A stretch of 64,000 nucleotides of DNA from assembly GCA_937872615.1 (NCBI GenBank), contig CALMTT010000400.1:1-64000 (forward strand), read 5' to 3'. A program made the position numbers and the translations under genes. Each line of letters starts with the position of its first letter. Positions within the stretch are counted from its first letter, which is position 1. The notes beneath the pieces were generated by a model that did no database searches, was not told the DNA's origin, and saw nothing but the letters and a program-made list of their open reading frames with translations. Of this stretch, positions 4,718 to 23,190 are shown one piece after another. The stretch comes from an uncultured Verrucomicrobiaceae bacterium. Lineage in GTDB: Bacteria > Verrucomicrobiota > Verrucomicrobiia > Verrucomicrobiales > Verrucomicrobiaceae.

Positions 4718-5282
4718 GAGCTTTTAGTTGTTCGTGAAGCGCCTTGAGCGTCTCGACAGGAAAACGCGCCTTGATGATGCGCCGCACTTCATAGCGTTCG
4801 TCTCCGTTCACGCCGGGCAGTTTGCGGAGCAGGCCCAATTCCTCGGCCCGGTTGATGGCTGCCTCGATGCGTTTGTCTGCGCGGATTTCATCGTTCGTTT
4901 CCGGGAAATAGATCGCGACCATCTGGAGGATTTCTTCCTTGGTTACGACGAGGCGGCTTTCGTCGTGAACCTTCTCATCGAATTGAAGCAGACGTTCGCG
5001 CAAAACCACCCCGACGATAGCTACTCCTCTGGCCAGTTTGTCGCGCCGGAACAGGCGGGGAATCACCGCGCCGTCTTCCTGCTCGGATTGTCTGAGGTAG
5101 GCAAACCCGTCTTCGTCGTGAACAACAAGCTGAAGTCCGATCTCCTGGAAATAATTCTCGATGTGCTGGCGGTAGCGCGACAGCATCGCCCAAAGTTCCA
5201 TATCGTCGGAATAGATCGCATCCTGCAACAGCCGGACTTTGACTGCCGCAGACGGAAACGATTTGGTTGGGTTCGGGTTCAT
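4692..5282 (-). CDS. jetB: Wadjet JetB, KITE/MukE-like subunit (DUF4194)
   Basis: A 196-aa DUF4194-type protein. In Wadjet it is the KITE (MukE-like) subunit that joins the JetA kleisin and the JetC ATPase. The sequence is a small winged-helix-like protein with mixed charge and no membrane segment. It follows jetA with a 4-nt overlap and runs 26 nt into jetC. The call rests on size, sequence style and position between unmistakable jetA and jetC genes. Confidence 0.87.
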   Translation of the reverse strand: MNPNPTKSFPSAAVKVRLLQDAIYSDDMELWAMLSRYRQHIENYFQEIGLQLVVHDEDGFAYLRQSEQEDGAVIPRLFRRDKLARGVAIVGVVLRERLLQFDEKVHDESRLVVTKEEILQMVAIYFPETNDEIRADKRIEAAINRAEELGLLRKLPGVNGDERYEVRRIIKARFPVETLKALHEQLKAHAITRDIQ

Positions 5283-6715
5283 GTGTTGGAAAAGACGATT
5301 TGCGGCACTCTGAAGCGATGATGGGGTTCACCGGGAATATCAAGTAGATCAAACCCATCCAGAACAATGTGCGGACCGTCCGATTCAGCGATGAGCAGAT
5401 AGGCGAGCACCTCCAGGATGCCGTTGCGCGGCGGATGGAGTTCCAGCAGTTCGGGCAGCGTGATCTGAACACGCGTTTGCAGACAGTCCCTGATGTTCTG
5501 GCGTAAGCGGTCGAAGTCCACCGGGTGCAAACGAAGGAATGCCTCAAGCGTGTCCTGGTAGTCGCCGCCGTCACTGACTTCCAGACTGCCGCCGAATTCC
5601 ACGTGCTCCGGCGGCGACCATGGAGACTTGGACATGAGCGACGACAAAGCCGGGGTCGTATCCAATTCGATCATCTCCGCCTGTGGCGTCATCTCGCGTG
5701 TCTCATGCGCGAGTGATTTGATGTCCTGAATCAATCGGCCAACCTCGCGTCGTTCCGCCGATTCGCGAACATCCAGCACCCGCCGAAGCTGGGCGATCAG
5801 CCGCTCATTTGACGCAACGACCTTGTTTCCTTCGGCGCGGAGACTCGATTGTAAGCGCCGCAACAGCACATCGGCTTTCAATTCGTCGGCCAGGTTTGGC
5901 AGCGAATACGCCTGTTCGACCAACTCGGTGAACTGGCGGCGACGCTCCGGCGCGAGTAGAAAGTCCCAAAACGCGTAGAAGCTTTGTCCCTGGCTGGATT
6001 GCCGCAGTTGCTCTTGCGCGTCGAGAGTCTGCCCAACGATGCTTCCGCGCGTCGCTCCCACTGATGATTGCTGGACGGAAATGATCTCCGTGACCCGCCG
6101 AAAATGGCGCTCCACCTCGCGAAAATCACCCAGAAGATTCCGGGCCGTCTCCAACACGGTTGCAAACCGCTCGTTGACTTGGGTGGGATTGTAGAGCGTC
6201 ACGACGCCGGTGCGTTCAATCTCTTCGATCTGCTGCTGGAGCTTCAACTGCTCCTCCTTCAGGCGTTGAATGCGGACATCTGGATCGCGCGTGGAATTGA
6301 CGACGATGTCCTCCAGCACAGAAGCCAGGTTCTTGAACTTGGATTCCGTGCCGACGTGGGATTTTGGTTTCAGGCTTTCCAGCCACTGAAACACTTGTTC
6401 AATTTCTGGGGTCAGCTCAAAAACCGGTTCGTCCACGCCATCGGGGTGGTGTCGGCGCAAATAGCCGTGCGCCTGGTCGGCCCACTCAAGCAGATATTCC
6501 CGCGCTTTCTTGTCCGCTGTGGATTCACCTGCGTCACGCAGTTCCTCAAGTTCGGCCTCCAGAATGGCTCGCAAGCGGCTCTCGGGAATTGTGGAGGTAT
6601 GTTCGTGTTTGAAGGCTGCGAAGAGGACTGCCAAAACAAATGGCGCATTGTCCGCCCGCAGCAACCGGAGTTGGGCGGAATCAGTAAATGAAAGTTGAAG
6701 TTCGGCGTGGTTCAC
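5279..6715 (-). CDS. jetA: Wadjet JetA, kleisin/MukF-like subunit (DUF3375)
   Basis: A DUF3375 protein, the MukF-like kleisin of Wadjet, which bridges the SMC heads. I chose the GTG start at 6715 (protein begins VNHAELQLSF), giving 478 aa, typical of the family. The frame stays open back to 6862, but that part is only the antisense-like overlap with the preceding peptidase gene. A GGAT stretch just before the GTG could serve as a weak ribosome site. The gap from the upstream metallopeptidase gene is 35 nt, the largest between the genes of this operon, so an internal start of transcription for jetABCD is possible. Helical, coiled-coil-rich middle section. Confidence 0.88.
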   Translation of the reverse strand: MNHAELQLSFTDSAQLRLLRADNAPFVLAVLFAAFKHEHTSTIPESRLRAILEAELEELRDAGESTADKKAREYLLEWADQAHGYLRRHHPDGVDEPVFELTPEIEQVFQWLESLKPKSHVGTESKFKNLASVLEDIVVNSTRDPDVRIQRLKEEQLKLQQQIEEIERTGVVTLYNPTQVNERFATVLETARNLLGDFREVERHFRRVTEIISVQQSSVGATRGSIVGQTLDAQEQLRQSSQGQSFYAFWDFLLAPERRRQFTELVEQAYSLPNLADELKADVLLRRLQSSLRAEGNKVVASNERLIAQLRRVLDVRESAERREVGRLIQDIKSLAHETREMTPQAEMIELDTTPALSSLMSKSPWSPPEHVEFGGSLEVSDGGDYQDTLEAFLRLHPVDFDRLRQNIRDCLQTRVQITLPELLELHPPRNGILEVLAYLLIAESDGPHIVLDGFDLLDIPGEPHHRFRVPQIVFSNT

Positions 6716-6750
6716 GATCCAATCGGCATGCGGCCTGTCGCGATGGCGGC

Positions 6751-7458
6751 CTACATTGGGCCGGTCCTTTCCAGCTTTGCCTTTCGGCGCTTCCAGTCCG
6801 GCAGGATTCGCGACAGCAGCCTGTAGAATTCCGGGCGGTGATGATGGCAACGAAGGTGGCAAAGCTCGTGGATGATCACGTAGTCAATGCAATCCACTGA
6901 GGTGGCCACGAGCGCGGGATTCAGCAGCACTCGGCCATGCGTGCCGCAACTTCCCCAGCGGCGCGGCATTCGACGAAGTGAGAATGGGCCACTCTTGATT
7001 CCGAAGCTCTCAACGTGTTTGGCACATCGCTGGAATCGCTCCGCGATCTTTTGGCTAGCCCGCGCTGCCAACCACGCGGCAAGCAGGCGTGTCGGTCTGT
7101 CGGTGCGGGATGTAGGGCGGGTGACGACCTCCAAACAGCCGCGTGATAGCCGGATGGCATCCTTCTCTCCCTGCCGAATCCGCAGGCGATACTGGCGACC
7201 GAGATAGCGGATGGATTCACCGCTTCGGTGGTTTCGGCCTTCGGGCAATCCCAGCATTCGGGCAAAGTCCCGCTGCTGTTTCAGAACCCACCGCCCTCTG
7301 CGACCAACCCGTCGCTGAATTTCATCCGCATCCGCATCCAGCGGTGCAACGACCTCCACCAGCCCCGCCGGATGAACGCTAATGGCGAGGCTCTTGACCT
7401 TGCGGCGTTCCAGCCTGAAGGGAATCTTCCGGCTTCCGTATTGTGCTTCGCAGATCAT
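6751..7458 (-). CDS. YgjP/M48-like metallopeptidase (DUF45)
   Basis: A 235-aa zinc peptidase-like protein of the YgjP/WLM (DUF45) class. The zinc motif HELCH is at residues 197-201, with further histidines at about 205-207 in HHHRPEFY. The N-terminal half has the usual beta-rich DUF45 layout. Homologues are commonly encoded beside hsdR of type I restriction systems; what they do there is not established. The start overlaps the hsdR stop by 4 nt (ATGA type). Active-site residues look intact, and there is no signal peptide, so it should act in the cytoplasm. Confidence 0.85.
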   Translation of the reverse strand: MICEAQYGSRKIPFRLERRKVKSLAISVHPAGLVEVVAPLDADADEIQRRVGRRGRWVLKQQRDFARMLGLPEGRNHRSGESIRYLGRQYRLRIRQGEKDAIRLSRGCLEVVTRPTSRTDRPTRLLAAWLAARASQKIAERFQRCAKHVESFGIKSGPFSLRRMPRRWGSCGTHGRVLLNPALVATSVDCIDYVIIHELCHLRCHHHRPEFYRLLSRILPDWKRRKAKLERTGPM

Positions 7459-10400
7459 TGGCGTCGGTTCATGTCGTGATAATGTGCTTCTGCGACGGGT
7501 AGCAGTTCCTTGCCGATTTCATCCAGAGCCGAAAGCGGCAGCGCAAAGCCCTTCCGCCGAGCCGCATCCAGCAGGCGATCCTCCGCCGCATTGAGCATGT
7601 GGTTTCGGACATCCGTGTTGGCGGTCCAGTTAACAATGCGCGCGTGCTCCGCAACCACTTCGTCAATGGCCAAGCCCAATTCGACGCTATGTGCTTCAGC
7701 ATCGGCCGGGAGCATGGATTCCAGCTTGGCCAAGGCCCGTCGGATGATCCCATAAAATGCTCTGGCTGCGGGCCGGTGCTGCAATGCCTCTGGCAATTCG
7801 GTCGTGCCTTGGTCGCGGACCTTCTGCATTACCTCGGTGACGCTCGCCAGGTATTGCGCATCCGAAATGCGTTTATTGCGAAAGTCCTCGATCAGGCGCT
7901 GGAGAATCCTTGAGAACCGTTCGTAGAACGCAGGGTCTTCTTCCCACTTCTCGCGAATCGTTCTTGCCGTGCGACTTGCGATGGTGTCGGCGCGCGACGC
8001 TGAACCTTCCAGCTTCTCCACTTCGGCGTCGAATCGTTCCTTGTCGAAGATGTTGACCAGCGGCGTAATCCTCGTGACCTCGGTTGCGCCAACATGCCGG
8101 TCAATCAAGGTCTGGATGCGTTTCTCGTATTCGCTGTAATCCACTTCCTCGCTGTAACGCTGCTTCATCCGTGTCCGCAGATTGAGTAAGTATTTCAAGT
8201 CGCGGCGATACTGGTTCACCTTCGCGTTTGGAGTGTCTGCGAGAAACCCGGCGGACGACATGGCAACCTGGAACGTGCGCGCGAACCTGCTCAAGCGGGC
8301 GTAGAACTCGTCCCGCTGTTCCTGGTCCTTGAGGCAGGCGGCGAACTGCTCGTCGTCCCGCTTGTTCTTCACCGTGCGGAACAACTCCCACAAGTCCGAG
8401 TATGTGTCGGGCAGCTTGCCGACTTCATCCGCCAATGGGGTCAACGTGGCGGCAAGATCGACCGGATCGAATTGGGCTAGGGCCTCGTAATGGGTGAGCG
8501 CCTCATTCAAATCGCCCAGGATGCCGTAGTAATCAATGATGTAGCCGAAGTCCTTCCCCTCGTTCTTGCGATTCACGCGGGCAATCGCCTGCAAAAGCGT
8601 GTGGTCGGTCAGTTTCTTATCAATGTAGAGGACGGTGTTCACCGGCGCATCGAAGCCCGTCAGGAGCTTGCTGACCACGATGATGACTTGCGGATCGCCG
8701 TCGCCTTTGAAGCGGCTGGTGAGGCTTTCGTTGTAGCGTTCCTCCGTGCCAAACCGCGACATCATCTCGCGCCAGAATGCCTGCACGCGCGGCAATTCGC
8801 TCTCAGCGCATTCCTCGTAATCGTCGCGGTCGTCGGGCGCGGAAATCAGAACCTCGACCGACACTCGCACGCTGGGGTCGGTCCGTCCGATGTCCTCAAT
8901 GATCTCCTTGTAGCGAAGCGCCACGTCCTTGCGCGGGGCAACAAGCTGCCCTTTCGCTCCCGTGCCGGCAAAGGTGCTGGTGAAATGCTCGCACAGATCA
9001 TAGGCGACCATGAGTAATCGCTTGTCCGCCCGGTTCAGATGATCCGCCGTGGCGAACTTGCGTTTGAAGTCGGCTTTCTGCTGCTCCGTCTTGCCTCGCA
9101 TCATGCGCTCGAACCAAAGGTCAAGCTGCGCCTGGTCCACGTCCTGTTCGACGTGACGCCCCTCGTAGAGCAGTGGCACGACCGCTTCGTCGCGAACAGC
9201 GTGATCGAGCGTGTAAGTGTGGATGAAATCGCCAAACACCCGCAGGTTGTTCCGCTTTTCGTCCTGAACGACGGGTGTGCCGGTGAACCCAATGAAACAG
9301 GCGTGCGGCAGGGCCTTCCGCATCAATGCGTGAAACGAGCCAAAGTTCGTCCGGTGTCCCTCGTCCACAAGGACGAACAGGTTCTCGTCCTCGTCCAGGT
9401 GAGACGCGCCTTTCACGGCGCGCTCGAACTTGTTGATGATGGTCGTGATAACGGCCGCCTTCTTCGCTTCGATAAGTTCACGCAACTCCTTGCCATCACG
9501 GGCGCGCAATGGTTCGTAGCCGCAATACCGGAACGTGTCGCAAATCTGGCGGTCCAACTCCACGCGGTCGGTGACGAGAATCAGCCGTGGATTGCGGATG
9601 GCGGGCGAAAGCGCCAATGCCTTTGCCAGCATCACCATCGTCAGCGATTTGCCGCTACCCTGGGTGTGCCAGACCAGTCCACCGCGACGGCTTCCGTCCG
9701 GTTCGTGCTCTTGCACGCGCGCGAGCGCAGCTTTCACCGCCGCGTATTGCTGATGCCTCGCGATCTTCTTCTGCCCGCCGTCGTAAACAACGAAGATGCG
9801 CGCCAGCTCCAGCAGCCGCTCGGGGCGGCACAGGCCGAAGACCGTGCGGTCTTGCGCAGTCACGCCGCGCTCGTGCAATTCGTTCGGGCCATCGCGCCGC
9901 CAGAACAACTTGACCAATTCATCCACGGGCAGCGCCGTGTTGAGCACCGTCTGAACATCGCCGTCGGGGACGGACTCCTGCCATGCCGACCAGAACTCCG
10001 CTGGCGTTCGGGCGGTGGCGTAACGGGCGCTCTCGCCATTCAATGCGAGGACAAGTTGGGCGAACCAGTAGAGCCGGGGAATCCCGTCGTTCTTTTGATT
10101 CCGCAGATGTTGGGAGATGCCCTGATCCAACCATTTCTTTCCGCGTGGCTTGCACTCGATCACGGCGAACGGGATGCCGTTCACGAACAAGACGACATCC
10201 ACACGATAGGTTTCGCGCGAACCGGTGCGCTCGACGGCGAACTCCTCGGTGACATGGAACACGTTTTCGCCCCAGCGCTCCCAATCCACGTATCGCAGCG
10301 TGAAGCTGCGCGTGTCGCCCTCGACCGTTTGCGGGAAGCTCTTTCCCAAAGAAAGCAGAGCGTAAACCTTTTCGCTCGTCTGAATCAGCCCTTCATCTGG

Positions 10401-10664
10401 AAGATCCCGTAGGGTGGCGATGGCGGATTCGACTGCCTCGGCGGAGAACGGCTGTTCGCGGCCACGCCACCGGACACGGTTCATCTTGGCAAGCTGTTCG
10501 CGTAGGATGGGCGTCAGCAGCACCTCGGATTTGCGCCCGCCACGCAATTGCAGCGCCTCGGTCGGCGGCAGATAGCGGAAGCCCAGCTTCATCAGCAATT
10601 CCACCGCTGGAATCTGTGACGCCAGTTTCTCGCGCGTATCAGGAGTTGTGGGTTCGTTGGGCAT
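7455..10664 (-). CDS. hsdR: Type I restriction enzyme, R (translocase/nuclease) subunit
   Basis: HsdR (1069 aa) is the restriction and translocation subunit of the type I enzyme. Domains in order: an N-terminal PD-(D/E)XK nuclease with D156 and E170-C-K172, followed by a QGISQHLRNQ motif; an SF2 helicase core with Walker A HTQGSGKS (333-340) and DEGH box (434-437), then the TGTPV motif; and a long helical C-terminus for binding HsdM. All key motifs are present, so it should be active. It begins 12 nt after the E2-like gene and is thus separated from hsdM and hsdS by the CBASS genes. Confidence 0.96.
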   Translation of the reverse strand: MPNEPTTPDTREKLASQIPAVELLMKLGFRYLPPTEALQLRGGRKSEVLLTPILREQLAKMNRVRWRGREQPFSAEAVESAIATLRDLPDEGLIQTSEKVYALLSLGKSFPQTVEGDTRSFTLRYVDWERWGENVFHVTEEFAVERTGSRETYRVDVVLFVNGIPFAVIECKPRGKKWLDQGISQHLRNQKNDGIPRLYWFAQLVLALNGESARYATARTPAEFWSAWQESVPDGDVQTVLNTALPVDELVKLFWRRDGPNELHERGVTAQDRTVFGLCRPERLLELARIFVVYDGGQKKIARHQQYAAVKAALARVQEHEPDGSRRGGLVWHTQGSGKSLTMVMLAKALALSPAIRNPRLILVTDRVELDRQICDTFRYCGYEPLRARDGKELRELIEAKKAAVITTIINKFERAVKGASHLDEDENLFVLVDEGHRTNFGSFHALMRKALPHACFIGFTGTPVVQDEKRNNLRVFGDFIHTYTLDHAVRDEAVVPLLYEGRHVEQDVDQAQLDLWFERMMRGKTEQQKADFKRKFATADHLNRADKRLLMVAYDLCEHFTSTFAGTGAKGQLVAPRKDVALRYKEIIEDIGRTDPSVRVSVEVLISAPDDRDDYEECAESELPRVQAFWREMMSRFGTEERYNESLTSRFKGDGDPQVIIVVSKLLTGFDAPVNTVLYIDKKLTDHTLLQAIARVNRKNEGKDFGYIIDYYGILGDLNEALTHYEALAQFDPVDLAATLTPLADEVGKLPDTYSDLWELFRTVKNKRDDEQFAACLKDQEQRDEFYARLSRFARTFQVAMSSAGFLADTPNAKVNQYRRDLKYLLNLRTRMKQRYSEEVDYSEYEKRIQTLIDRHVGATEVTRITPLVNIFDKERFDAEVEKLEGSASRADTIASRTARTIREKWEEDPAFYERFSRILQRLIEDFRNKRISDAQYLASVTEVMQKVRDQGTTELPEALQHRPAARAFYGIIRRALAKLESMLPADAEAHSVELGLAIDEVVAEHARIVNWTANTDVRNHMLNAAEDRLLDAARRKGFALPLSALDEIGKELLPVAEAHYHDMNRRQ

Positions 10665-10676
10665 GGATATTCCGGT

Positions 10677-11135
10677 TCAGTTCCGGCTGTGGTCCTCGGT
10701 CGGAGCAAGGTCTTCGGGTTTGGGCTGGCCATGAACGGCTGATTTTCCGAGCCACTTGCCGGTAAGCAGGAATAGCTCGTAGAACACGAGCCACTCCGCT
10801 GTCCACGGGATGATGGTTTGGTGCAGATGCCAATGCTTCTGCCAAGGCTGTTCGCGCCAGTCGAAAAGGCAGAGCGTGTCGTTGTGATACATGTGCGCAC
10901 CCTTGGTGTATTCAATCCTCGGCTCGATGACGCGGACCTCTGGCGAGTTCCACGGCGCGTAGTGGATTTCGACGCGATAGCTTGGGCTCTGCTCCGTCGG
11001 CTGGATGCGTCCCCGGCATGTCAGTTTCAACCCACTGATGCGCGAGTTCAAAAACGGGAACTTCTCCCGAAGCAGCGCTTGTTCGCTGACGACCTTGCGA
11101 TACTTGTCAGCCTTGTTTGTCGGAATCATCACCAT
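10677..11135 (-). CDS. CBASS E2-like conjugating protein (type II-short)
   Basis: A 152-aa bacterial E2-like (ubiquitin-conjugating-like) protein. The core motif YHNDTLCLFDW puts the likely catalytic cysteine at residue 89. It follows a beta-rich section (IHYAPWNSPEVRVIEP) and precedes the helix IIPWTAEWLVFYELFLL, as in E2 proteins of E2-only CBASS. In such systems the E2 acts on the C-terminus of the CD-NTase, and here the neighbouring CD-NTase ends in glycine. The ATG at 11135 or 11129 is preferred; the frame stays open to 11174. Either start overlaps the CD-NTase gene. No E1 (ThiF-like) or JAB gene is present. Confidence 0.85.
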   Translation of the reverse strand: MVMIPTNKADKYRKVVSEQALLREKFPFLNSRISGLKLTCRGRIQPTEQSPSYRVEIHYAPWNSPEVRVIEPRIEYTKGAHMYHNDTLCLFDWREQPWQKHWHLHQTIIPWTAEWLVFYELFLLTGKWLGKSAVHGQPKPEDLAPTEDHSRN

Positions 11136-12216
11136 AGAACTTGTGAGCCAGATTTGGCACGCCCGCCCCAACAAGAGTGGAGACGATCACCCCCGAACCG
11201 TTCGTCGAAGCCAGGCCGGCATTCACGAGCGCGGCCTTGCTGAACAGTGCATGAGCCTTGGCAGAATCCTTGTCGTAGGCTTCAAAGAAGTCGTCGCTTT
11301 GGAACACCCAATCCCACGCCTCGCGCGCCTGCGGCTTCGTGCAATTGGGATGATGCAGCACCAACAGCTTGTCGAGCGCCTCGCCTACGCGGGTGCGGAG
11401 TTCGACCATGTTTTCATCGTTCGCGGATTTCGTGAGTTTGTCGCGCGGGGTCTTGGTTTGCGCCCGGTTCTCGACTTCGAGGCTGGACGCAAGCCGGGTC
11501 TTGAGCTTTGAAAGCAGCCAGTAGAACGCCTCGTCGTCACGCTCGTAGTAGCTGGGAGCGCATTCCTCGACCAGCATCGTCAGCTTGAGCCCGTTCGGCA
11601 TGTCCCAATCCTCGCCGCGACTGCGGGCAAACCGTTTCATCAGGCGAATCATCACTCGCAACTGCGAGCCTCCTCCGTCCCGCTGCTTGTTCAGCGCCTC
11701 GACGCGTTCCTCAAACCAACGGTTGATTTCGGTCGGGTCAGACCCGGTGAAGCCACTCGCCCCAGCCAGTTCCTGGCGCTCCGCGTCGGTATCCGCGTCG
11801 AGCTTCCGGTAGCACGGAATGTCAACGTGATGCCCTTCCGCGTAGAAGACGCGGACGCAGTTGTTGTGAATTTCCGGCTGCTTGTTGAAATTCGGGTCTT
11901 TGACCGCGTCGCGCACCATCTCCTGGGTCTCGCGCGCGGTGTAGGCCGTGCCGTCCTTCTTTTTCAGGTCGTCTTTGTGAAACCACACCCCGTCGTCAAT
12001 GTCGTAAGCGTTGTCTTTCTCCTGCACGGTCGTGTTGATGGCCATCGAACCTTGCGGAATGAAATGGTCGTCGTTGAGCCGGATGTTCTCGGGGCGATTG
12101 CGCTTGAGGCGATTGCGGTTCGCTTCACGGTGGCCACGCAACTTGTCCTTTACCGCCTGCGGCAGATTCACACAGTCGGTTTCGTAAGCTTGAATCTGTT
12201 CGTTGTAATCAAACAT
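11107..12216 (-). CDS. CD-NTase (cGAS/DncV-like nucleotidyltransferase)
   Basis: A 369-aa CD-NTase, the CBASS enzyme that makes a cyclic oligonucleotide alarm signal on phage infection. Nucleotidyltransferase motifs: GS at residues 56-57 in QGSMAINTTV, metal-binding D72 and D74 in YDIDDGVWF, and the third carboxylate D132 in HVDIPCY. These match DncV-type enzymes. The last residue is glycine (ends DDSDKQG), fitting C-terminal modification by an E2. I chose the ATG at 12216 because the protein then begins MFDYNEQIQ; the open frame extends further but overlaps the upstream gene. The overlap with the DUF6602-type gene is 8 nt. The second-messenger product cannot be told from sequence. Confidence 0.92.
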   Translation of the reverse strand: MFDYNEQIQAYETDCVNLPQAVKDKLRGHREANRNRLKRNRPENIRLNDDHFIPQGSMAINTTVQEKDNAYDIDDGVWFHKDDLKKKDGTAYTARETQEMVRDAVKDPNFNKQPEIHNNCVRVFYAEGHHVDIPCYRKLDADTDAERQELAGASGFTGSDPTEINRWFEERVEALNKQRDGGGSQLRVMIRLMKRFARSRGEDWDMPNGLKLTMLVEECAPSYYERDDEAFYWLLSKLKTRLASSLEVENRAQTKTPRDKLTKSANDENMVELRTRVGEALDKLLVLHHPNCTKPQAREAWDWVFQSDDFFEAYDKDSAKAHALFSKAALVNAGLASTNGSGVIVSTLVGAGVPNLAHKFYGDDSDKQG

Positions 12217-12985
12217 GGGGCACTCCTTGGGTGGCAGGCTTGTTGGCGAGTTGGTTGGCGTAGGCCATCCAGTCCACCGCCGGGACTGTGGCCAGGGATT
12301 GCAGTTTCGAGAGCAGTCGGAACGCAAAATGGGCAAGCGCGTTTTCCGGTGGGCCGAACGTGTATTTGCCCGGTCCTTCGAAAACATCAAAACTCGCGCC
12401 CGTTGCGGCAAAACCGCAGTCAATCGTGCCCTCCTTCGGCAGCTTCGCGTGAATCTCCCGAAACGATTCGCCCAGACCGTCCTTCCAATCCACTTCGATG
12501 GCAAGGATGCCCGCCACAATCTCGAAGTGTGGCTTCGGCGAAAGTTTGCCGTTGGCAGTGTAGATTTCGACCGATGTCCGCTTCAGCCGGCGCACTGACG
12601 CGGCTTTGTCCGCCGCGTATTCCAGGTAGCCTTTGTCAATCTTCGGCTTGCACTCGAACACGGCATAGACGGCCTCCGCGGGAACATAGCGATGCTTGTC
12701 GTTGTCCAGCAGCGTCGGCGTGTATTGCCGGTCAAACACCACCACGTCAATGGACTGGCTCACGTTGCCGTCGCTATCGAGCACGATGGCCTTCTCAACG
12801 GTGTAGCGGTTCGGCAGATACTTGCGCAGGAAATCAATGAAGTGCTGCTCGTTCACTTCGCCCCGGTCGCCCGCGTGAGTGATGCGTCGGGACGACTTCA
12901 GCTTTGGGGCGAGGCATTCCTGTTCCGTCGCGAACGCTTCGCGGAGGAAGTCGGCGTTCTTGGGTGTGTTGTTCTCGTTGCTCAT
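12209..12985 (-). CDS. DUF6602-type PD-(D/E)XK-like protein, candidate CBASS effector
   Basis: A 258-aa protein resembling DUF6602. It shows a nuclease-like acidic layout: E43/E46, D80 in SIDVVVFDRQ, and E111-x-K113 in AVFECKP, the order expected for a PD-(D/E)XK active site. The C-terminal ~130 residues match no ligand-binding domain I know. It starts at ATG 12985, two bases after the hsdS stop, and overlaps the CD-NTase start by 8 nt, so it is tied to both systems. By position it is the only candidate effector for the CD-NTase/E2 pair. This role is inference; it could instead assist the restriction system. Confidence 0.7.
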   Translation of the reverse strand: MSNENNTPKNADFLREAFATEQECLAPKLKSSRRITHAGDRGEVNEQHFIDFLRKYLPNRYTVEKAIVLDSDGNVSQSIDVVVFDRQYTPTLLDNDKHRYVPAEAVYAVFECKPKIDKGYLEYAADKAASVRRLKRTSVEIYTANGKLSPKPHFEIVAGILAIEVDWKDGLGESFREIHAKLPKEGTIDCGFAATGASFDVFEGPGKYTFGPPENALAHFAFRLLSKLQSLATVPAVDWMAYANQLANKPATQGVPHV

Positions 12986-12987
12986 AA

Positions 12988-14220
12988 TCACTTCGCCTTC
13001 ACGCGGATTTCGCCGGTCAGGAGCTTTTGCATCAGGCCGCGCTTCTGTTGCTTGAGGGCTTCCAACTCTGCTTCGAGCAGGTGGATTTCGCGGACGCAAG
13101 CATCGAGCAGAGTGACGATTTCCAGTTGCTCTGCCTTTGTGGGCGGGACGCGAATTGGGTGGTTGAGGAATGCCTTCAGGTCAAAATTCAGCCGTAGGCG
13201 CTCGGCAAACACACCATTGCTGGCAAGGTAAGCCAAGTTCTTGAGCGTGGCGGTTTGCGACAAGTAGTGAAAAAACCGCATGTCGAACGTCGCCGGGTCG
13301 CGAACCTGCAACACTTCATATTCGTCGTTTACATCGTAGCCGTGGAATTCGGGTGGCACGATGGACATGCCGCCCCAGGTGACTTGGCGGCGCGAAATCA
13401 AAAAGTCGTTCGCGTGAATCTTCTTGCAGACCTTTACTTTGATTTTGCTGCCTGGCAGTTCGGCCCGGAAGAACACCCCGCCAGAGTTTCGCCTCACACC
13501 CGCTAGCTTGAAGATGCGTTGATCGTTCCAATCTTCGTAGCGGTTTACGGGCTTGAGTAGGTCGCCGATTTTCCGGGTCGTCCATAGGTTCTTCTTGGGG
13601 TTCGGAAAGCGGCGCACGCCTGCGACAAGTTGTTGTCTTAGCGAGGAGAGGCGATCGCGCTTTGTCGATAGCAGCAACTTGAGCCTTTCAATCCCCGTAT
13701 CCCATGTCTCCAAGATTCGGGAGAGTTTCCGCTGCTCCGGCACGGGAGGCAGGAGTACTGGGAATGCCTTGAGTTGGCTCGTATTGACGCTTGCAAGGTT
13801 CGTGGACTGTTTCGAGCAGCTCAAAAAGTAACGTCGTCCCCAAGGCGAGGCCGTGAGCTTTTCAAGGAAGTCGTTGCGGAGCTGTGAAGACGTAACGCGC
13901 ACTGCGAACACATGGTTCTGATGAACGCATGGTTCGATTTGTCCTTCCCAGATGCAGCCGCGTCCCAGCTTGTCAAAGTCGCCGCCTTCGGTCATCAGAA
14001 GGTCACCGCGTCGAAGCAGGTAGCGGTTCAGTTTACGCTCTGGGACTTCGATGGTCTTCATTTCCGTCAGGTCAACGTGGCCGTCTTGGACATTTGCCAC
14101 GCGAAGGTACGGCAGGATGACTACCGGTTTTTCTTTCTGCGCGCCCTTGGCAATGCCGGTCTGAATCTCGGCAAGCTTGTCGAGTCTCTCGATTTTCCAA
14201 CCTTTGGGCGGCTTCGTCAC
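12988..14220 (-). CDS. hsdS: Type I restriction-modification specificity subunit, two TRDs
   Basis: HsdS (410 aa) sets the DNA target of the type I enzyme. There are two target-recognition domains, at about residues 1-155 and 205-365. Each is followed by a helical spacer that starts with an EQ motif (PEQRKLSRILETWD near 160-195 and EQLEIVTLLDACVREI near 370-405). This is a complete bipartite subunit. It overlaps hsdM by 4 nt. A second, single-TRD HsdS-like gene lies upstream of hsdM, so the operon has two specificity proteins. Confidence 0.93.
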   Translation of the reverse strand: MTKPPKGWKIERLDKLAEIQTGIAKGAQKEKPVVILPYLRVANVQDGHVDLTEMKTIEVPERKLNRYLLRRGDLLMTEGGDFDKLGRGCIWEGQIEPCVHQNHVFAVRVTSSQLRNDFLEKLTASPWGRRYFLSCSKQSTNLASVNTSQLKAFPVLLPPVPEQRKLSRILETWDTGIERLKLLLSTKRDRLSSLRQQLVAGVRRFPNPKKNLWTTRKIGDLLKPVNRYEDWNDQRIFKLAGVRRNSGGVFFRAELPGSKIKVKVCKKIHANDFLISRRQVTWGGMSIVPPEFHGYDVNDEYEVLQVRDPATFDMRFFHYLSQTATLKNLAYLASNGVFAERLRLNFDLKAFLNHPIRVPPTKAEQLEIVTLLDACVREIHLLEAELEALKQQKRGLMQKLLTGEIRVKAK

Positions 14221-15740
14221 AGTCCAAGCTCCTTGAGGTAACGGCCGATTTCCTTCCGCACGCCGACGAGTTCGTCTTCGAGGCGGTTGATTTCCTTCTG
14301 CACTTTCTTCAAGTCCACCGGGGCTTCTGGCTCGAAGGTGTCCACGTAGCGCGGGATGTTGAGATTGAAGTCGTTCTCCTTCACTTCCTCGAACGTGACG
14401 CGCTTGGCGTATTTGGGCACGTCCTCGAACTTGCGGAACGTCTCCACAATCTTCTCGATGTCCTGCGGACGGAGTTTGTTCTGTTTTGCGTCTTGGGCGA
14501 AGTCGCGGCTGGCGTCAATGAACAGGATGTCCGTGCCGTGGCGGGCCTCCTTCTTGCCCTTGTTGAACAGGAGGATCGCGGCGGGAATCCCCGTGCCGTA
14601 AAACAGATTCACCGGTAGCCCGATGACGGCTTCGAGCAGGTTTTCCTCAATGAGCGTCTGTCGAATCTTGCCCTCGGCTGCTCCGCGAAACAGCACGCCA
14701 TGCGGCACAATGACACCGACGCGGCCTGAGCCAGCGGCAGCGGCCTCGATCATGTGGGTGATGAACGCGTAGTCGCCCCGGCTCTTGGGCGGGATGCCGC
14801 GATGGAAGCGGCCGTAAGGATCGGCGGCGGCTTTTTCCGCGCCCCACTTGTCGAGCGAGAACGGCGGATTTGCGACCACGATGTCGAACTTCATCAGGCG
14901 GCTGTCCTCGACGAGCTTGGGGGAGTTGATGCTGTCGCACCATTCGATGCGCGCGGCGTCGAGGCTGTGAAGGAACATGTTCATCCGCGCCAGCGCGTAG
15001 GTCTGATTGTTGTTCTCCATGCCGAACACGGCGACGTTCGTGGGCTGGGTCTTGTCCTTGCGCGGCACTTCGTGGGCGACCTTCACGAGCAGCGAGCCTG
15101 AGCCGCAGGCCGGGTCGCAAATCTTGTTGCCCGGCTTTGGCGCGAGCAACTTGGCGAGCAACGTCGCGACTTCGGCGGGCGTGTAGAACTCGCCGCCCTT
15201 TTTGCCAGCGTCCGAAGCGAACTGGCCGATGAGGTATTCGTAGCAGTCGCCGATGATGTCGGCATTTCCAAGCGTGCGCGGGCGCAGGTCCAGCGGCGCG
15301 AAGTCCTCCAGCAGATGCTTGAGGCGGCGGTTGCGGTCACGTGTCTCGCCGAGGTTAACCTCGGAATTGAAATCAATCTTGCGGAACACGCCGTCGAGCT
15401 TTGCCTTGTTCTCGTCTTCGATGGAATCGAGCGCGTGGTTGATGAGTTCGCCGATGTCGTCGGCGTCGCGCTGGGCGTAGAGGGAATCGAACGTGGCGTC
15501 CTCCGGCATGATGAACCGCTCGCGGGCAAGGCGGCGCTGCACCATGACTTCGTCCTTCGGGAATTGAGCGCGCAATTCCTCGACGCGTTGGCGGCGCACG
15601 TCGCTCAGGTATTTGAGGAATAGCATGGTCAGGACGTAGTCCTTGTAAACGGACGAATCCATGACGCCCCGGAAGGTGTCGCACGCCTTCCAGGCGACGC
15701 GGTTGATTTCGGCTTTGCGGTCAATGATGGGATCAGGCAT
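14217..15740 (-). CDS. hsdM: Type I restriction-modification DNA methyltransferase subunit
   Basis: HsdM (507 aa), the N6-adenine methyltransferase. The N-terminal HsdM_N helical domain begins with DTFRGVMDSSVYKDYVLTML. SAM-binding motif I DPACGSGSLL is at 209-218 and the catalytic motif NPPF at 291-294. The C-terminal helical tail contacts HsdS. It overlaps the upstream single-TRD gene by 8 nt and hsdS by 4 nt. All motifs are intact, so methylation should be functional. Confidence 0.96.
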   Translation of the reverse strand: MPDPIIDRKAEINRVAWKACDTFRGVMDSSVYKDYVLTMLFLKYLSDVRRQRVEELRAQFPKDEVMVQRRLARERFIMPEDATFDSLYAQRDADDIGELINHALDSIEDENKAKLDGVFRKIDFNSEVNLGETRDRNRRLKHLLEDFAPLDLRPRTLGNADIIGDCYEYLIGQFASDAGKKGGEFYTPAEVATLLAKLLAPKPGNKICDPACGSGSLLVKVAHEVPRKDKTQPTNVAVFGMENNNQTYALARMNMFLHSLDAARIEWCDSINSPKLVEDSRLMKFDIVVANPPFSLDKWGAEKAAADPYGRFHRGIPPKSRGDYAFITHMIEAAAAGSGRVGVIVPHGVLFRGAAEGKIRQTLIEENLLEAVIGLPVNLFYGTGIPAAILLFNKGKKEARHGTDILFIDASRDFAQDAKQNKLRPQDIEKIVETFRKFEDVPKYAKRVTFEEVKENDFNLNIPRYVDTFEPEAPVDLKKVQKEINRLEDELVGVRKEIGRYLKELGL

Positions 15741-16323
15741 GGGCGGCTTGTTGGTTGGCCCAGGCGCGCAAGAGGTCGCGGCGGGCGGTGGAAAGTTCGT
15801 TCATGAGATTGTGTTCCTGTTCGATCAGGGAATTGAGTTCGGCGACGTGGCGTTGCACGTCGAGCGGTGGTAGTTGCACCGGCAACGCACGTAGCACGTC
15901 GAGGGAAATCATGGGAATGGTCGTGCCGGAGTTGTTTGCGCGCATGAATTGCTGCGACACGTCCTGGTTGAGCCACCACGCGAGGAACGGCGGGAACACA
16001 AGGGTTGTGTCGGGACGCAGGACATGAAAGCTGCCCGGCACGATGGCTTGGCCACTGGTTTCGGCGACGGGCACGGCGTAGTTGCGCGGGCCGCGCGCCA
16101 TGAGAATCACGTCGCCGGGCTGAAGCAGGTGCTCGGCGAGATTCCGAATCCCGCTGGCGCTAATCTGCGTCAGCCCATCCTGGGCAGGCGCGATGCGGAG
16201 GCGATCGGCGTCCACATCGCGCCCCTGAATCAACGCGACCGTCCCGTCCGGGTCTGGCTCGATGCTCGACCGGAATGGATAGCCGGCACGTAGCGCGGCG
16301 ACTTGTCCAAGCGTTGTGTTCAC
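15733..16323 (-). CDS. Single-TRD HsdS-like protein (half specificity subunit)
   Basis: A 196-aa protein with one target-recognition domain (about residues 1-155, including the motif ISLDVLRALPVQLPPLDVQ) and one helical spacer (about 155-190). It is therefore half of an HsdS. It lies directly upstream of hsdM with an 8-nt overlap. Half-size HsdS proteins can dimerise to recognise palindromic targets in some systems; whether this one acts alone or with the full HsdS is unknown. The gene starts and stops cleanly and does not look like debris of the larger hsdS. Confidence 0.78.
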   Translation of the reverse strand: MNTTLGQVAALRAGYPFRSSIEPDPDGTVALIQGRDVDADRLRIAPAQDGLTQISASGIRNLAEHLLQPGDVILMARGPRNYAVPVAETSGQAIVPGSFHVLRPDTTLVFPPFLAWWLNQDVSQQFMRANNSGTTIPMISLDVLRALPVQLPPLDVQRHVAELNSLIEQEHNLMNELSTARRDLLRAWANQQAAHA

Positions 16324-19064: not shown

Positions 19065-20552
19065 TCAAAACATCCGCCTCCACCGAGAGAACCATTTCGC
19101 AGTTGTCCCGTCCGATTCCAGTGGCGGGAGAGTCACCCGGCGATAGCCGCGTTCGCAATGGACGAGCACGCACTCGTGGTCGCGGAGATTTCGGAGCTTG
19201 TGGGGCTTGATCTTGTGTTCCTCGGTTTCAGAGTAATTGCTGCTTGCCCGGCCGGCACTGTAGCCCCACGAGCGTTTGACCACGCGCTTCTTGCCGAGAA
19301 AATCGGCGGCCTGGACGGCGTCAGCTTCGTCGGCGGCGCGGAAGATGAGGCGGTTGCGGAGGTTCAACGTAAGCACTTTCGCCTTGTCGTTGCCGAGCGG
19401 GGGCACAAGTGAGGTCGTGCTCTGGGCGGCGGCGACAATGGTCGCGCCCGCTTCGCGGATCACGTCCACGCAATTGTAATCGCTCGTGCCATCCTCGCTG
19501 GCGGTCATGAACCGTTGCGCTTCGTCGGCCCACAGGATGAGCAGGTTGTTTTCGGCGCGGGCAGCTTTGGCTTGGTCGAATCGGCGCAAGGCGTGGTTGT
19601 AGTAGAGCAATTTTAGGAGCGTGTTCACGTAACGCCGCTCGGTCTGGAACTTCTGCGGCATCGTGGTGAGGATGATTTTGCCCTGGTCAATCGTGTTGAA
19701 ATGGAACGTGCTTTCGCCCGTGCAAAACACTTGGGCCACTTCGGGCGTGAGGAAGTATTGGAGGTAATTCGCGATGGTTTCGCGGACACCGCCAAGCTGC
19801 TCGTCGGGTTGCGTCAGAAAGCGGTTGGCGAAGTGGGCGTAAACGGCTTCGCGGCGCGGCGTTTCCAGCAGCGATTCGAGGTTTTCCATTTCTTCCTCCA
19901 GCAGTTCGCGATCAGACAGAAGCTCGAACGCGCCTCGCAGCGTCACCGGGCGGCTCAACTCGAATAGCATTTCCAGCGCATGAGCGATGTGCGTCTGCGC
20001 CTGGCTTTTGAAGAATCCCTTGTCGCCGCCCTGGCCGAGGCTGGTGGCGGTGTCCACGACGAACTTGGCGTAGGTCGTGAACGGGATGCTTCGGTCGCCG
20101 GTCAGGTTGTAGCGGTGCGGCGGCGTCCAATGAATGTCCGCGTCGTTGGCGCGGATGTGCAGATGAATCAGGTCGTGCTCACGCCCGTAGTGCCGGGCCA
20201 TAGCAGCGAGCGTTTCCCAATAGACCCCCTTTTCGTCAATGCACAGGCCGCCCCACGTCGGCTCGTTCTGGAAGACCTGGTGCGCGAGTTGATTGATGCC
20301 GGAACTCGTTTTGCCTGAGCCGGTGTCCCCGGTGATGAGCCACCCGCGACAGAACTGGTTTCGCCGCCACGACAGGCCCCCCAGGCGCGCGACAAATCCC
20401 CGTTTCGCCGGTGCGAACAAGAGCCACGCGGCCAGCAGTGCAAATGAAATACCGCCCGCAAGCAGGAGGTATTGAGGATGCCGCAACATCAATTCCAAGT
20501 CTGGCGGGAAGGCGATCGGGCTGAACGGCACGAAATCAAGCTTCATGGCCAC
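19065..20552 (-). CDS. VirD4/TraG-like conjugative coupling ATPase
   Basis: A 495-aa type IV secretion coupling protein-like ATPase that would pump DNA to a transfer channel at the inner membrane. There is an N-terminal membrane segment near residues 28-48, Walker A GDTGSGKT near 75-82, Walker B in LLILWADEAQRFM, and an AAQSTTSLVP sensor-like motif. It is shorter than many TraG/VirD4 proteins, which often exceed 600 aa. It overlaps the TraM-like gene by 10 nt. No relaxase or mating-channel genes are in the window, so the module is either minimal, mobilisable or decayed. Confidence 0.8.
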   Translation of the reverse strand: MAMKLDFVPFSPIAFPPDLELMLRHPQYLLLAGGISFALLAAWLLFAPAKRGFVARLGGLSWRRNQFCRGWLITGDTGSGKTSSGINQLAHQVFQNEPTWGGLCIDEKGVYWETLAAMARHYGREHDLIHLHIRANDADIHWTPPHRYNLTGDRSIPFTTYAKFVVDTATSLGQGGDKGFFKSQAQTHIAHALEMLFELSRPVTLRGAFELLSDRELLEEEMENLESLLETPRREAVYAHFANRFLTQPDEQLGGVRETIANYLQYFLTPEVAQVFCTGESTFHFNTIDQGKIILTTMPQKFQTERRYVNTLLKLLYYNHALRRFDQAKAARAENNLLILWADEAQRFMTASEDGTSDYNCVDVIREAGATIVAAAQSTTSLVPPLGNDKAKVLTLNLRNRLIFRAADEADAVQAADFLGKKRVVKRSWGYSAGRASSNYSETEEHKIKPHKLRNLRDHECVLVHCERGYRRVTLPPLESDGTTAKWFSRWRRMF

Positions 20553-20905
20553 GCCCTCCCGATCAGGTATCCAGCCAGCAGGCTGGCGAGCGCGGCGAAG
20601 AATGCCGCCGTCCGGGTGATTCGGGCCGCGAGATGCGTCGTGGGCAGCTTCTTCAAGGCGTCCAGCAGGGCCGCTGACTGTGCCTGAAATGTCCGTGTCG
20701 TTTCCGCGAGCTTTGCGATGTCGGCCCGCACCAGTTCAAACGACGGCATTTCGCGCCGCCGCAGGTCATCCCAATGCCGTTGGTGGATGCGGAATAACTC
20801 GACCAGCAGCAGCACCGCATCGTCCTCGCGCAGTCGGTATCGCTCGCGCCAGTCGGCCACTGCCCTCTCGAAATCGTCGTCAAAGTCGGGTTCGATGTTT
20901 GGCAT
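20543..20905 (-). CDS. Small C-terminally membrane-anchored protein (TraM-like position)
   Basis: A 120-aa acidic helical protein with one C-terminal membrane segment (AAFFAALASLLAGYLIGRAW). Size, topology and the position after a ParA/TraL-like gene match the TraM slot of IncP-type Tra1 regions, though sequence similarity cannot be judged by eye. It is tightly packed: 3 nt after the ParA-like gene and overlapping the coupling ATPase gene by 10 nt. Confidence 0.6.
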   Translation of the reverse strand: MPNIEPDFDDDFERAVADWRERYRLREDDAVLLLVELFRIHQRHWDDLRRREMPSFELVRADIAKLAETTRTFQAQSAALLDALKKLPTTHLAARITRTAAFFAALASLLAGYLIGRAWP

Positions 20906-20908
20906 AGG

Positions 20909-21601
20909 CTACTTGGTCGGCAGAAGGAGTTCGGTGACCGATTCGATTTCGCCGTAGAGCTTGCGCTGCCACGTCTGAAGACGCTGCCGGTCGAGGAGGC
21001 TGAACGCGGCGTGCTTGACCGCTGCGGTGATGGTCACGTTCTCCGCGTTGAGCATCTCCACGAGCCAATCCTGCAAGCGGGCCATCGCGATTTCACGTCC
21101 GGCGAGTTTGTCCTTGAGCTGCGCCCGCACATCCGAGGATTCAAACAGCGCGAAGCTGTCGCTGTGCGCTGCGTTACGCACCACGACGTAACCAGACTGC
21201 TTGCCGAACTGGTCGGCGAGCCGCTGCACCTGGTCCACGCTGTCGGCCTCGTGATTCACCGGCATGACGAGCGTGAGTTGCGCACCCATCGCCGCGAGAA
21301 CGGCGGGCAGATCTATCTCGGCAAAGTATTCAATGAACAGGTCGGTCGAGGCCGCCCGGCAATCCATGACGACGAGTTGCGATTTCTCCAGCGCCGCAAA
21401 GATGCCGTCGAGTTCGCGGCGGTTGTCCAGGTCGAGAAACCGTGCGTCTGGATGAAACCGCTTCAACGTCGAATTCTCGTTGTCGGAATCAATCGCGACG
21501 TGCGCGATGCCTTTGTCCTTGAGGAACTGGACGAAGTTCACGGCAAAGAAACTTTTGCCGACGCCGCCTTTGCCATTGAGGATCAAATCGAGTCGTTTCA
21601 T
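20909..21601 (-). CDS. ParA/MinD-like ATPase (TraL-like)
   Basis: A 230-aa deviant Walker ATPase: the KGGVGKS motif is at residues 11-17 (LNGKGGVGKSFFAVNF). The DSDNENSTLKRF segment follows the pattern of conjugation-linked TraL proteins rather than chromosome-partition ParA. No ParB gene accompanies it. It overlaps the HTH gene upstream by 4 nt and sits 3 nt before the TraM-like gene. Likely role: assisting assembly or positioning of the transfer machinery; exact role unknown. Confidence 0.75.
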   Translation of the reverse strand: MKRLDLILNGKGGVGKSFFAVNFVQFLKDKGIAHVAIDSDNENSTLKRFHPDARFLDLDNRRELDGIFAALEKSQLVVMDCRAASTDLFIEYFAEIDLPAVLAAMGAQLTLVMPVNHEADSVDQVQRLADQFGKQSGYVVVRNAAHSDSFALFESSDVRAQLKDKLAGREIAMARLQDWLVEMLNAENVTITAAVKHAAFSLLDRQRLQTWQRKLYGEIESVTELLLPTK

Positions 21602-22020
21602 GTGGTCTGGGGTTTGAGCATCCGCACTTGGGCAATGCGCGGCCCGCGCGGGCGCGGCTGTTGAGAATCCTCGCTGCTGCCATTGGTCGGTGGTTCTGCG
21701 GCTGGGAGCGTGTCCGGTGGCTGCTGTTGCACGGCGTCAGAGCCAGACACGGCGGGGACGACGGGCCGTTTGCGTCCGGGACGCCGGCGCGGACGAACGA
21801 TTTCGCCGAGCACCTCATGACAGAACACGGCGACGGCCGTTTTGCTCGTCGGCAGGCAGTGCTGCGTGAGCAATTCGGCAATCGCGCGATACGAGGCGCG
21901 CTTCTGTCGGAGTTCGGCGATGACTTCCTTGGCCGGGATCAAGTCCTGGAATTTCTCAGGACGGCGCGGTGTAAACTCCGCGACCGCCTGCCGGACACTG
22001 GCTGGATCAAATGAGGTCAT
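21598..22020 (-). CDS. HTH protein, TraK-like, conjugation-associated
   Basis: A 140-aa basic protein with a helix-turn-helix-like block (AELRQKRASYRAIAELLTQH) in the N-terminal half and a proline/arginine-rich tail. It is the first gene of the traK-traL-traM-traG-like order, so a role in binding the transfer origin is reasonable. ATG 22020 is chosen; longer frames are low complexity. Repeats of CGCGGACA lie just upstream, a candidate target. Confidence 0.6.
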   Translation of the reverse strand: MTSFDPASVRQAVAEFTPRRPEKFQDLIPAKEVIAELRQKRASYRAIAELLTQHCLPTSKTAVAVFCHEVLGEIVRPRRRPGRKRPVVPAVSGSDAVQQQPPDTLPAAEPPTNGSSEDSQQPRPRGPRIAQVRMLKPQTT

Positions 22021-22150
22021 ACGTGGGAGCGTGGTGGATGTGGACGGGAAACTCCGTTGTCGGCACGGTAGCCACGCAAAGGCGATGAAGCGCCGGTGAC
22101 CGGATCGAGGATAATTCCCCGTCGGCCCGCGATTGCGGCCTGTTTCTGGA

Positions 22151-22435
22151 CGCGGACATCCCGGAATCCCGGACTGAACAGGCACAAATCGAAGTCACGG
22201 CTTTTGCCTGACCTTGGCCGCTCTGGTCCGTTGACGGTTCGTGGACACGGACAATTCGTTGCCGCGACTGCGGGCGCGGACAGAACGCAACTGCGGACTG
22301 GTCGCGCTCTGGACTCTTGCGCGACTGCGCCCTGCCCGTGGCTGAATCGGGGTCGCGGACAGGCCATTGCCGTGGCCGCTGCGCGCTGCTGTTGCGCGGC
22401 TGTTCCGTGCCCGCTCCGCGACTCATTCGCGGACA
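22151..22435. repeat. CGCGGACA direct repeats, candidate oriT or binding array
   Basis: The perfect 8-mer CGCGGACA occurs four times in the same orientation, at 22151, 22275, 22354 and 22428. Near copies are at 22240 (CGTGGACA) and 22246 (CACGGACA). The repeats fall in different reading frames of the overlapping open frames, so they are not codon repeats. The 455-nt stretch 22021-22475 has no convincing gene, and it is located where an oriT would lie relative to traK-like genes. Confidence 0.55.
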
Positions 22436-22475
22436 CAGAATCCTTGTGGCAACAAGGGGTAAGGCTTGTCCTGTC

Positions 22476-22730
22476 TTAATCATGATGAGAAACGCACTGC
22501 CTCTGTTGTTGGCTGAGTTCGCTACGCCACTGCTCCAATTGAGCGGTCACGGCCTGAATGCGGGTGATTTGCTCGATGCTCACCACTTTGGCCCGATCTC
22601 CTACGTGAGCACCGAGTCGGGTCTCCGGCAGTTCAACGATGAGATTTGCGGCGTTGCGATTGATGTGTTCGCCAAACCGTTTCAGCACTTGGATGGCGGT
22701 TCGGATTTGAGCGGTCGTTGGTGCGTGCAT
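22476..22730 (-). CDS. Small mobile-element-associated protein, unknown
   Basis: An 84-aa protein starting MHAPTTAQIRTAIQVLKRFG. The style (xAQIRTAIxVLKRxGExIN, then an LPETRLGxH block and a C-terminal coiled coil) resembles small proteins found in integrative elements of Proteobacteria, but no function is known to me. It starts 2 nt after the next upstream gene ends, so the two are co-transcribed. Confidence 0.6.
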   Translation of the reverse strand: MHAPTTAQIRTAIQVLKRFGEHINRNAANLIVELPETRLGAHVGDRAKVVSIEQITRIQAVTAQLEQWRSELSQQQRQCVSHHD

Positions 22731-22732
22731 AA

Positions 22733-23011
22733 TCAGATCTGGATTCCGCGCGAAGGCTTGCGGGTGGGTTTGGGATGATGGCTTTCCCGGCACTTGGGCA
22801 CCCATTCCGCCCCTTGGACCTCCTCTGGCCGGACAGGATGTGCCCAGGGTTCACTGAACCCGATTCGAGCGGCGGCCTCCTCGGCGGCGAGCTTGGTGGG
22901 CGCTTCAACAACATTGCGAAGCGGATCTCCCATCAAGCGGGCGTGTTCCCGGTCCGTGTAGTAGATGCCCCAGAGTTGACTGGCCGACTGCTGTATCGTC
23001 CTCGTAATCAC
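22733..23011 (-). CDS. Small protein, unknown, mobile-element context
   Basis: A 92-aa protein starting MITRTIQQSASQLWGIYYTD. No family recognised. It ends in a basic tail and has the motif ARIGFSEPWAHPV in the middle. It is paired with the 84-aa gene downstream. Its context next to the transfer-gene remnant suggests element cargo. Confidence 0.55.
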   Translation of the reverse strand: MITRTIQQSASQLWGIYYTDREHARLMGDPLRNVVEAPTKLAAEEAAARIGFSEPWAHPVRPEEVQGAEWVPKCRESHHPKPTRKPSRGIQI

Positions 23012-23190
23012 ACAGTCAGTTCATCACAGGTGGTTTTTCCTTGGATGTATCAATTACACAAAGTGCGAGGGTAGTCCCGGAAGCGTCCCGTCGAAGGCCG
23101 TTGAGATGTCCCATACGAGTCAGCGCTGGCACTGGCAACGGGCAGACGATAGAATTGAATCGCCGGAGCGAGTTCGCTCCAAGCGCAACA

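Follow-up and report, generated by a model that had tools for sequence, protein, structure and literature searches.

To our knowledge, the way in which proteins of the TraK/StbA kind organise the DNA beside oriT is poorly understood. The closest described systems are those of R388 and RP4. In R388, StbA binds the stbDRs, 9-bp repeats with 2-nt gaps that lie beside oriT and next to StbB, and StbA and the ParA-like StbB together control both stability and transfer (PMC3098194). In RP4, TraK binds between nic and traK (Ziegelin 1992, as cited in PMC3098194). Here we compare with these a locus in a 64-kb stretch of DNA from an uncultured Verrucomicrobiaceae bacterium (the window, by which we mean the whole stretch), where copies of a short word probably form part of a 421-bp array on which an adjacent TraK/StbA-like HTH protein would assemble beside oriT.

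Four perfect copies of the word CGCGGACA (TGTCCGCG in the orientation of the module) lie on the + strand, at 22151–22158, 22275–22282, 22354–22361 and 22428–22435, and a pair of near copies on the same strand, CGTGGACA at 22240 and CACGGACA at 22246 (together 22240–22253), carries one mismatch each. Recounting gave the same copies, the same spacings of 124, 79 and 74 nt and the same spread over differing reading frames as a preliminary description, which had also placed the repeats upstream of a traK-like HTH gene. This placement holds: the spacer that contains the repeats ends at the start codon of the HTH gene, after which come TraL, a gene in the TraM position and the coupling ATPase gene.

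These genes all lie on the − strand. The HTH protein (21598–22020, 140 aa) consists of an HTH core, a disordered linker and a conserved C-terminal RGPRIAQVRMLKP tail. The structural model has a confident helical core (helices 28–39, 44–53 and 60–69) ahead of the linker, and the layout of domains is the same as in TraK-family proteins. Searches of Pfam and NCBIfam with the protein gave no family above threshold, and a fold search with the model matched no solved structure in the PDB; its kinship with TraK and StbA therefore rests on position, layout and partner. That partner is a ParA-like ATPase of the TraL/StbB kind (20909–21601; Pfam CbiA, 1.7e-8; NCBIfam TraL, 8e-19, below the curated cut-off), followed by a small protein placed at the TraM position by synteny only (20543–20905) and a coupling ATPase (T4CP; 19065–20552; Pfam TrwB_AAD_bind, 5.8e-15). 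On the far side of the repeats, also on the − strand, are genes for two conserved module proteins: the 84-aa ORF84 (22476–22730), whose gene ends at the probable oriT core and which occurs at 11 loci in 7 of the 384 genomes of the class, and the 92-aa ORF92 (22733–23011), which adjoins the relaxase in most relatives.

Two close paralogues of the window's TraL gene are present in the genome (89 and 88%, on contigs C593 and C618); the DNA similarity to these copies restarts directly outside the repeat region and spans the two small upstream genes. A TraL profile search returned 55 loci, mostly from Verrucomicrobiota assemblies, and the module is widespread in Verrucomicrobiota. The usual order is a divergent TrwC relaxase, ORF92, ORF84, the hairpin described below, the spacer, HTH, TraL, the TraM-position gene and the coupling ATPase. 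At two loci in other assemblies (L080 and L102) the 4 kb from 19.08 to 23.03 kb are common with the window at about 92% and the flanks are unrelated, which marks it as a discrete mobile module. Other arrangements were also seen. In L110, relaxase and ORF84 are inverted with respect to HTH–TraL, as if the stretch had been flipped. In L036 and L037 (G053:C5 and G034:C6), related HTH–TraL–T4CP modules with a divergent TrwC differ in the intergenic region, which has an inverted repeat of its own, GCGATGCC...GGCATCGC, and seems to be a different type of oriT. Coupling ATPase gene fragments that stand without the rest of the module (G000 C593 36079–36579 and C323 6973–7119) are remains of further copies.

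The relaxase divergent to the module in most relatives is of the MOBF (TrwC) class. On the contig of the window, a TrwC (MOBF) relaxase gene lies past the window end and points away (C400 65216–66601; L042 5216–6602). The 42 kb that separate it, at 65.2 kb (C400:65,248), from ORF92 may be either inserted cargo, as in L070, L072 and L104, or a piece of host DNA with a copy of the element at each end. PF08751 (TrwC) occurs eight times in the genome; the relaxase classes PF03432 and PF03389 were rejected, being absent from it. VirB4 (PF03135) was not found in the fragmented assembly of this genome, and the element is thus more likely to be mobilisable than self-transmissible. Between ORF92 and the displaced relaxase lies a palindrome, TGTATCAATTACACA (23046–23060), conserved as TGTATCnGnTACACA; in L072 and L104 a similar copy stands on either side of a 3–7-kb insert. 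This suggests that the palindrome is a recurrent insertion site. Right past the module, the window holds a defence island (217–16323) comprising a Wadjet-type JetABCD, a type I restriction–modification system (HsdR, HsdS, HsdM) and a CBASS cGAS-like cyclase, and in the sister copy L035 the neighbours are a helicase, a WYL regulator and a SMODS cyclase that has an S_4TM effector.

The probable core of oriT lies at the end of the spacer remote from the HTH gene, where a putative relaxase-binding hairpin, CCTTGT-GGCA-ACAAGG (22442–22457, + strand), is followed directly by a conserved tail, GGTAAGGCTTGTC (22458–22470, + strand), the probable nic region. When the single copy was folded as DNA, no signal emerged (z 0.32), and the hairpin is evident only by covariation across copies. 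Over 23 distinct sequences, pairing holds in 99.3% of cells, double changes number 25 as compared with 6.0 in shuffles, and the covariation score is 0.468 as compared with 0.085 when shuffled, none of 500 shuffles scoring as high. The consensus of these sequences reads CCTTNN-loop-NNAAGG and then GGT..NGC(T/G)T(G/A); this tail persists in relatives whose hairpins and flanks differ, and in close relatives part of it overlaps the end of ORF84, so that its conservation there is partly coding. Alignment of the three copies in the genome shows that the letters of the hairpin differ while the pairing stays, and that the repeat region is poorly conserved in its letters. Hairpin and tail thus resemble, and probably are, a hairpin recognised by a relaxase and the nic region that belongs to it. 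Two features of a MOBF oriT are found here, an inverted repeat (the covarying hairpin) adjoining a putative nic region and a TrwC-family relaxase in the element beside the site, the window's own copy of the latter being 42 kb away. A MOBQ-type nic region (GGTAA...GC) was dropped as a candidate because the associated relaxase is MOBF. In F and R388, the hairpin sits 5′ of nic; a like arrangement here would put the HTH–TraL genes on the trailing side, as judged from the orientation of the hairpin only. In L071, a group II intron with a reverse transcriptase ORF (12856–15035) lies between ORF84 and the oriT hairpin, its end adjoining a conserved TTTAAGACAGG. The preliminary suggestion that the repeats are binding sites of the HTH protein or part of an oriT gains comparative support from the covarying hairpin and tail beside the array, from the TraK–TraL gene order, and from a shift of the repeated word with the recognition helix that is described below.

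The same gene order bears on a second reading, in which the array is mainly a centromere or incompatibility site, HTH protein and ParA-like TraL form a partition system, and transfer is secondary. The array lies upstream of the operon, as it does in type Ib par loci, and the ParA-like partner is directly downstream. StbA of R388, for its part, serves stability as well as transfer (PMC3098194). The array, however, always abuts a hairpin of the relaxase type, its module includes a relaxase and a coupling ATPase, and the HTH protein carries no ParB-type domain by Pfam or NCBIfam, which sets the locus apart from ParABS systems. We consider it unlikely that partition is the main role; by analogy with R388, where one complex does both, partition and transfer need not be exclusive.

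The evidence that decides whether the repeats are real is a 5.64-nt period rather than the 8-mer. The spacer runs from the hairpin of the probable oriT core (22442–22470 with the tail) to the HTH start codon (22021–22441), and is the proposed binding region of the HTH protein. It is exactly 421 nt long in 19 copies, 18 from the first automatic set together with L103, and in the remaining copies measures 420, 409, 338, 248 nt and less. Within the 421-nt set, pairwise identity falls to 0.48, with a median of about 0.60; the adjoining HTH gene is better conserved in letters, yet its length varies from 398 to 428 nt among these copies. A degenerate period of 5.64 nt (11.3/2) runs through the window's spacer at a height that none of 200 shuffles reached, and the strongest non-codon period of the 64-kb window falls exactly on it. 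The spectral peak lay at 5.65 nt in all seven copies first compared, no shuffle being as high; a period of 5.64–5.65 nt was present in every 421-nt copy tested, each exceeding its own shuffles, and the mean spectrum of 17 copies stood at 8 times the highest shuffled mean. Autocorrelation peaked at lags of 6, 11, 17, 23, 28, 34, 45, 51, 62 and 79. Periodic power is limited to the spacer and at background level outside it, and phase coherence inside is 0.96–0.99 in 17 copies, which, since the copies are homologous, reflects conservation and not independent origin. In distant relatives (group B) a pooled period of about 11.8 nt was significant for the set, though not for most single copies. A coding origin was rejected: the overlapping ORF (22007–22483) is broken in both sister copies (C593 and C618), so that the spacer is non-coding there, and a period of 17/3 nt is no codon period.

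The repeated word falls on this lattice. The spacings of 124, 79 and 74 nt correspond to 21.99, 14.01 and 13.12 steps of 5.64 nt (about 22, 14 and 13 periods). Counted from 22428, the copy closest to the hairpin, in which GTCCGC is kept in 7 of the 7 copies first compared, the perfect copies at 22354, 22275 and 22151 stand 13.1, 27.1 and 49.1 steps away; the two near copies are one step apart. The copies of the 8-mer are real, but the 8-mer, offered earlier as the repeat, is not the true unit of repetition, which is a degenerate 5.64-nt lattice across 421 bp.

These dimensions count against a plain autoregulatory operator, by which the HTH protein would do no more than repress its own promoter through many weak sites. 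Such an operator would account for the array ending at the HTH start codon, and GTCC words are present between relaxase and ORF92 too. Nevertheless, about 70 phased half-sites over 421 bp without drift in length far exceed what a repressor needs, and an operator leaves the covarying hairpin at the opposite end of the array unaccounted for. We regard this explanation as improbable.

Copies of the module differ in their words, and the words change together with the recognition helix of the HTH protein. The helix of the window type, PTSKTA(V/I)A.FCH, pairs with GTCCGC words. Among distant copies, those with a CVMRFC or LMRFC helix have G(C/T)TGC or CTGCG words, and those with a CV(N/T)NFC helix have GCTTCG words; L113 and L133, from one genome (WY5.bin105), differ in both word and helix. 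The pairing is drawn from related loci, which are not independent, and with that reservation the co-change is the best indirect sign that the HTH protein reads the array. A recognition code may also be discerned (L106, L108, L109, L113, L114, L116, L124 and L133), with Met-Arg going with G(C/T)TGC/CTGCG and Asn/Thr-Asn with GCTTCG. If period and words instead reflected the shape of the DNA, which HU/IHF-like proteins of the host would bend or wrap, or a structured RNA transcribed there, the word would not be expected to follow the helix. Such an origin would suit the antiphase of G and C at 5.64 nt in the array and the closeness of 11.3 to the A-form repeat; for an RNA, an Rfam search at the array gave no family at threshold (best 17 bits, 40 being required). 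We hold either form of this explanation to be very improbable.

The 8-mer taken by itself gives only modest evidence. It is the sole 8-mer with four copies inside 285 bp in the 64-kb window; when the whole window was dinucleotide-shuffled 60 times, 2 of the shuffles contained some four-copy 8-mer cluster of that span, and none of 5000 local shuffles did. The expectation that it would be rare in the genome, on which the preliminary description had staked its reading, failed: there are 517 copies in 6.8 Mb (265 on the + and 252 on the − strand), as compared with 116/83 for the reversed 8-mer. Even at this density, four same-strand copies per 285 bp are far from expectation. A chance cluster of a GC-rich word, for which the genomic frequency and the shuffled windows might speak, is contradicted by the conservation of period, phase and length across genomes, and its probability is negligible.

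If the HTH protein does assemble on the array beside oriT, one protomer would touch the DNA about every 5.64 bp and a dimer every 11.3 bp. The resulting ordered nucleoprotein complex would cover the spacer and may mark or shape oriT for the relaxase. The complex might be positioned by the ParA-like ATPase, in the manner of StbA–stbDRs–StbB in R388 and of TraK at the RP4 oriT, and a further probable role of the HTH protein is to repress its own operon. On this model the length of the spacer would be fixed because phase matters, and the weakness and degeneracy of each site would let its letters drift. Since the helical repeat of free B-DNA is shorter than a step of 11.3 bp, strict same-face stacking would require twisted or wrapped DNA. 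A bolder form of the model, which we put forward tentatively and think rather doubtful, is a rigid nucleoprotein filament with one HTH protomer per 5.64 bp over exactly 421 bp, in which selection acts on length and phase and not on sequence; the word, set by two to three recognition-helix residues (Met-Arg for G(C/T)TGC, for instance, or Asn/Thr-Asn for GCTTCG), would be an identity tag for each coexisting copy in transfer and segregation. With dozens of natural copies of fixed length and phase and varying letters, the geometry of such a complex may be readable from sequence. Mobile elements of Verrucomicrobiota, among them at least one with a defence island, can be recognised by an oriT signature made up of the hairpin, a GGTAANGCKTGY-like tail and the 421-nt array.

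Centromere arrays of the ParR, TubR and Omega kinds are likewise short direct repeats near 11–12 bp, cooperatively bound, beside a motor gene. The window's binder, in contrast, has no homology to theirs, a relaxase-type hairpin is attached, and the array is far longer and more degenerate. RP4/IncP and other TraK-family plasmids are closer, with oriT between a relaxase and small gene(s) and, on its other side, TraK, TraL and the TraM position; their TraK proteins share the HTH, disordered linker and conserved C-terminal tail. In the intergenic regions of these TraK–TraL loci, other, element-specific short words occupy the same place, several at steps of about 10 nt. Periodicity was significant alone in three full plasmid TraK spacers (Acinetobacter, Citrobacter and Synechocystis) and suggestive or absent in others; that of Acinetobacter has a spectral peak at 4.9 nt and repeat lags of 10 and 20. 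RP4-type loci differ in their MOBP relaxases and TraJ, in a period of about 10 as compared with 11.3/5.64 nt, and in sharing no protein family match. The R388 stbDRs–StbA–StbB system (IncW, MOBF11) shares the MOBF (TrwC) setting; its repeats, too, lie beside oriT, immediately upstream of genes for a small DNA-binding protein and a ParA-like ATPase, and have a similar step, 9 bp + 2 nt = 11 nt (PMC3098194). It differs in having two sets of five clear 9-bp repeats, where the window has about 421 bp of degenerate 5.64-nt half-units of fixed total length; in addition, the window's TraL carries a classical KGG motif, its coupling ATPase gene is in the same gene run, and, by the inferred nic strand, its genes are on the opposite side of oriT, those of R388 Stb being on the leading side (PMC3098194). 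In the window, as in these systems, the probable oriT core and the start of the binder gene flank an array, a TraL/StbB-like ATPase follows, and an element-specific short word recurs at about helical spacing; on this comparison the best reading of the array is that it is of the TraK/StbA type and lies at a MOBF element's oriT, as a variant of known systems.
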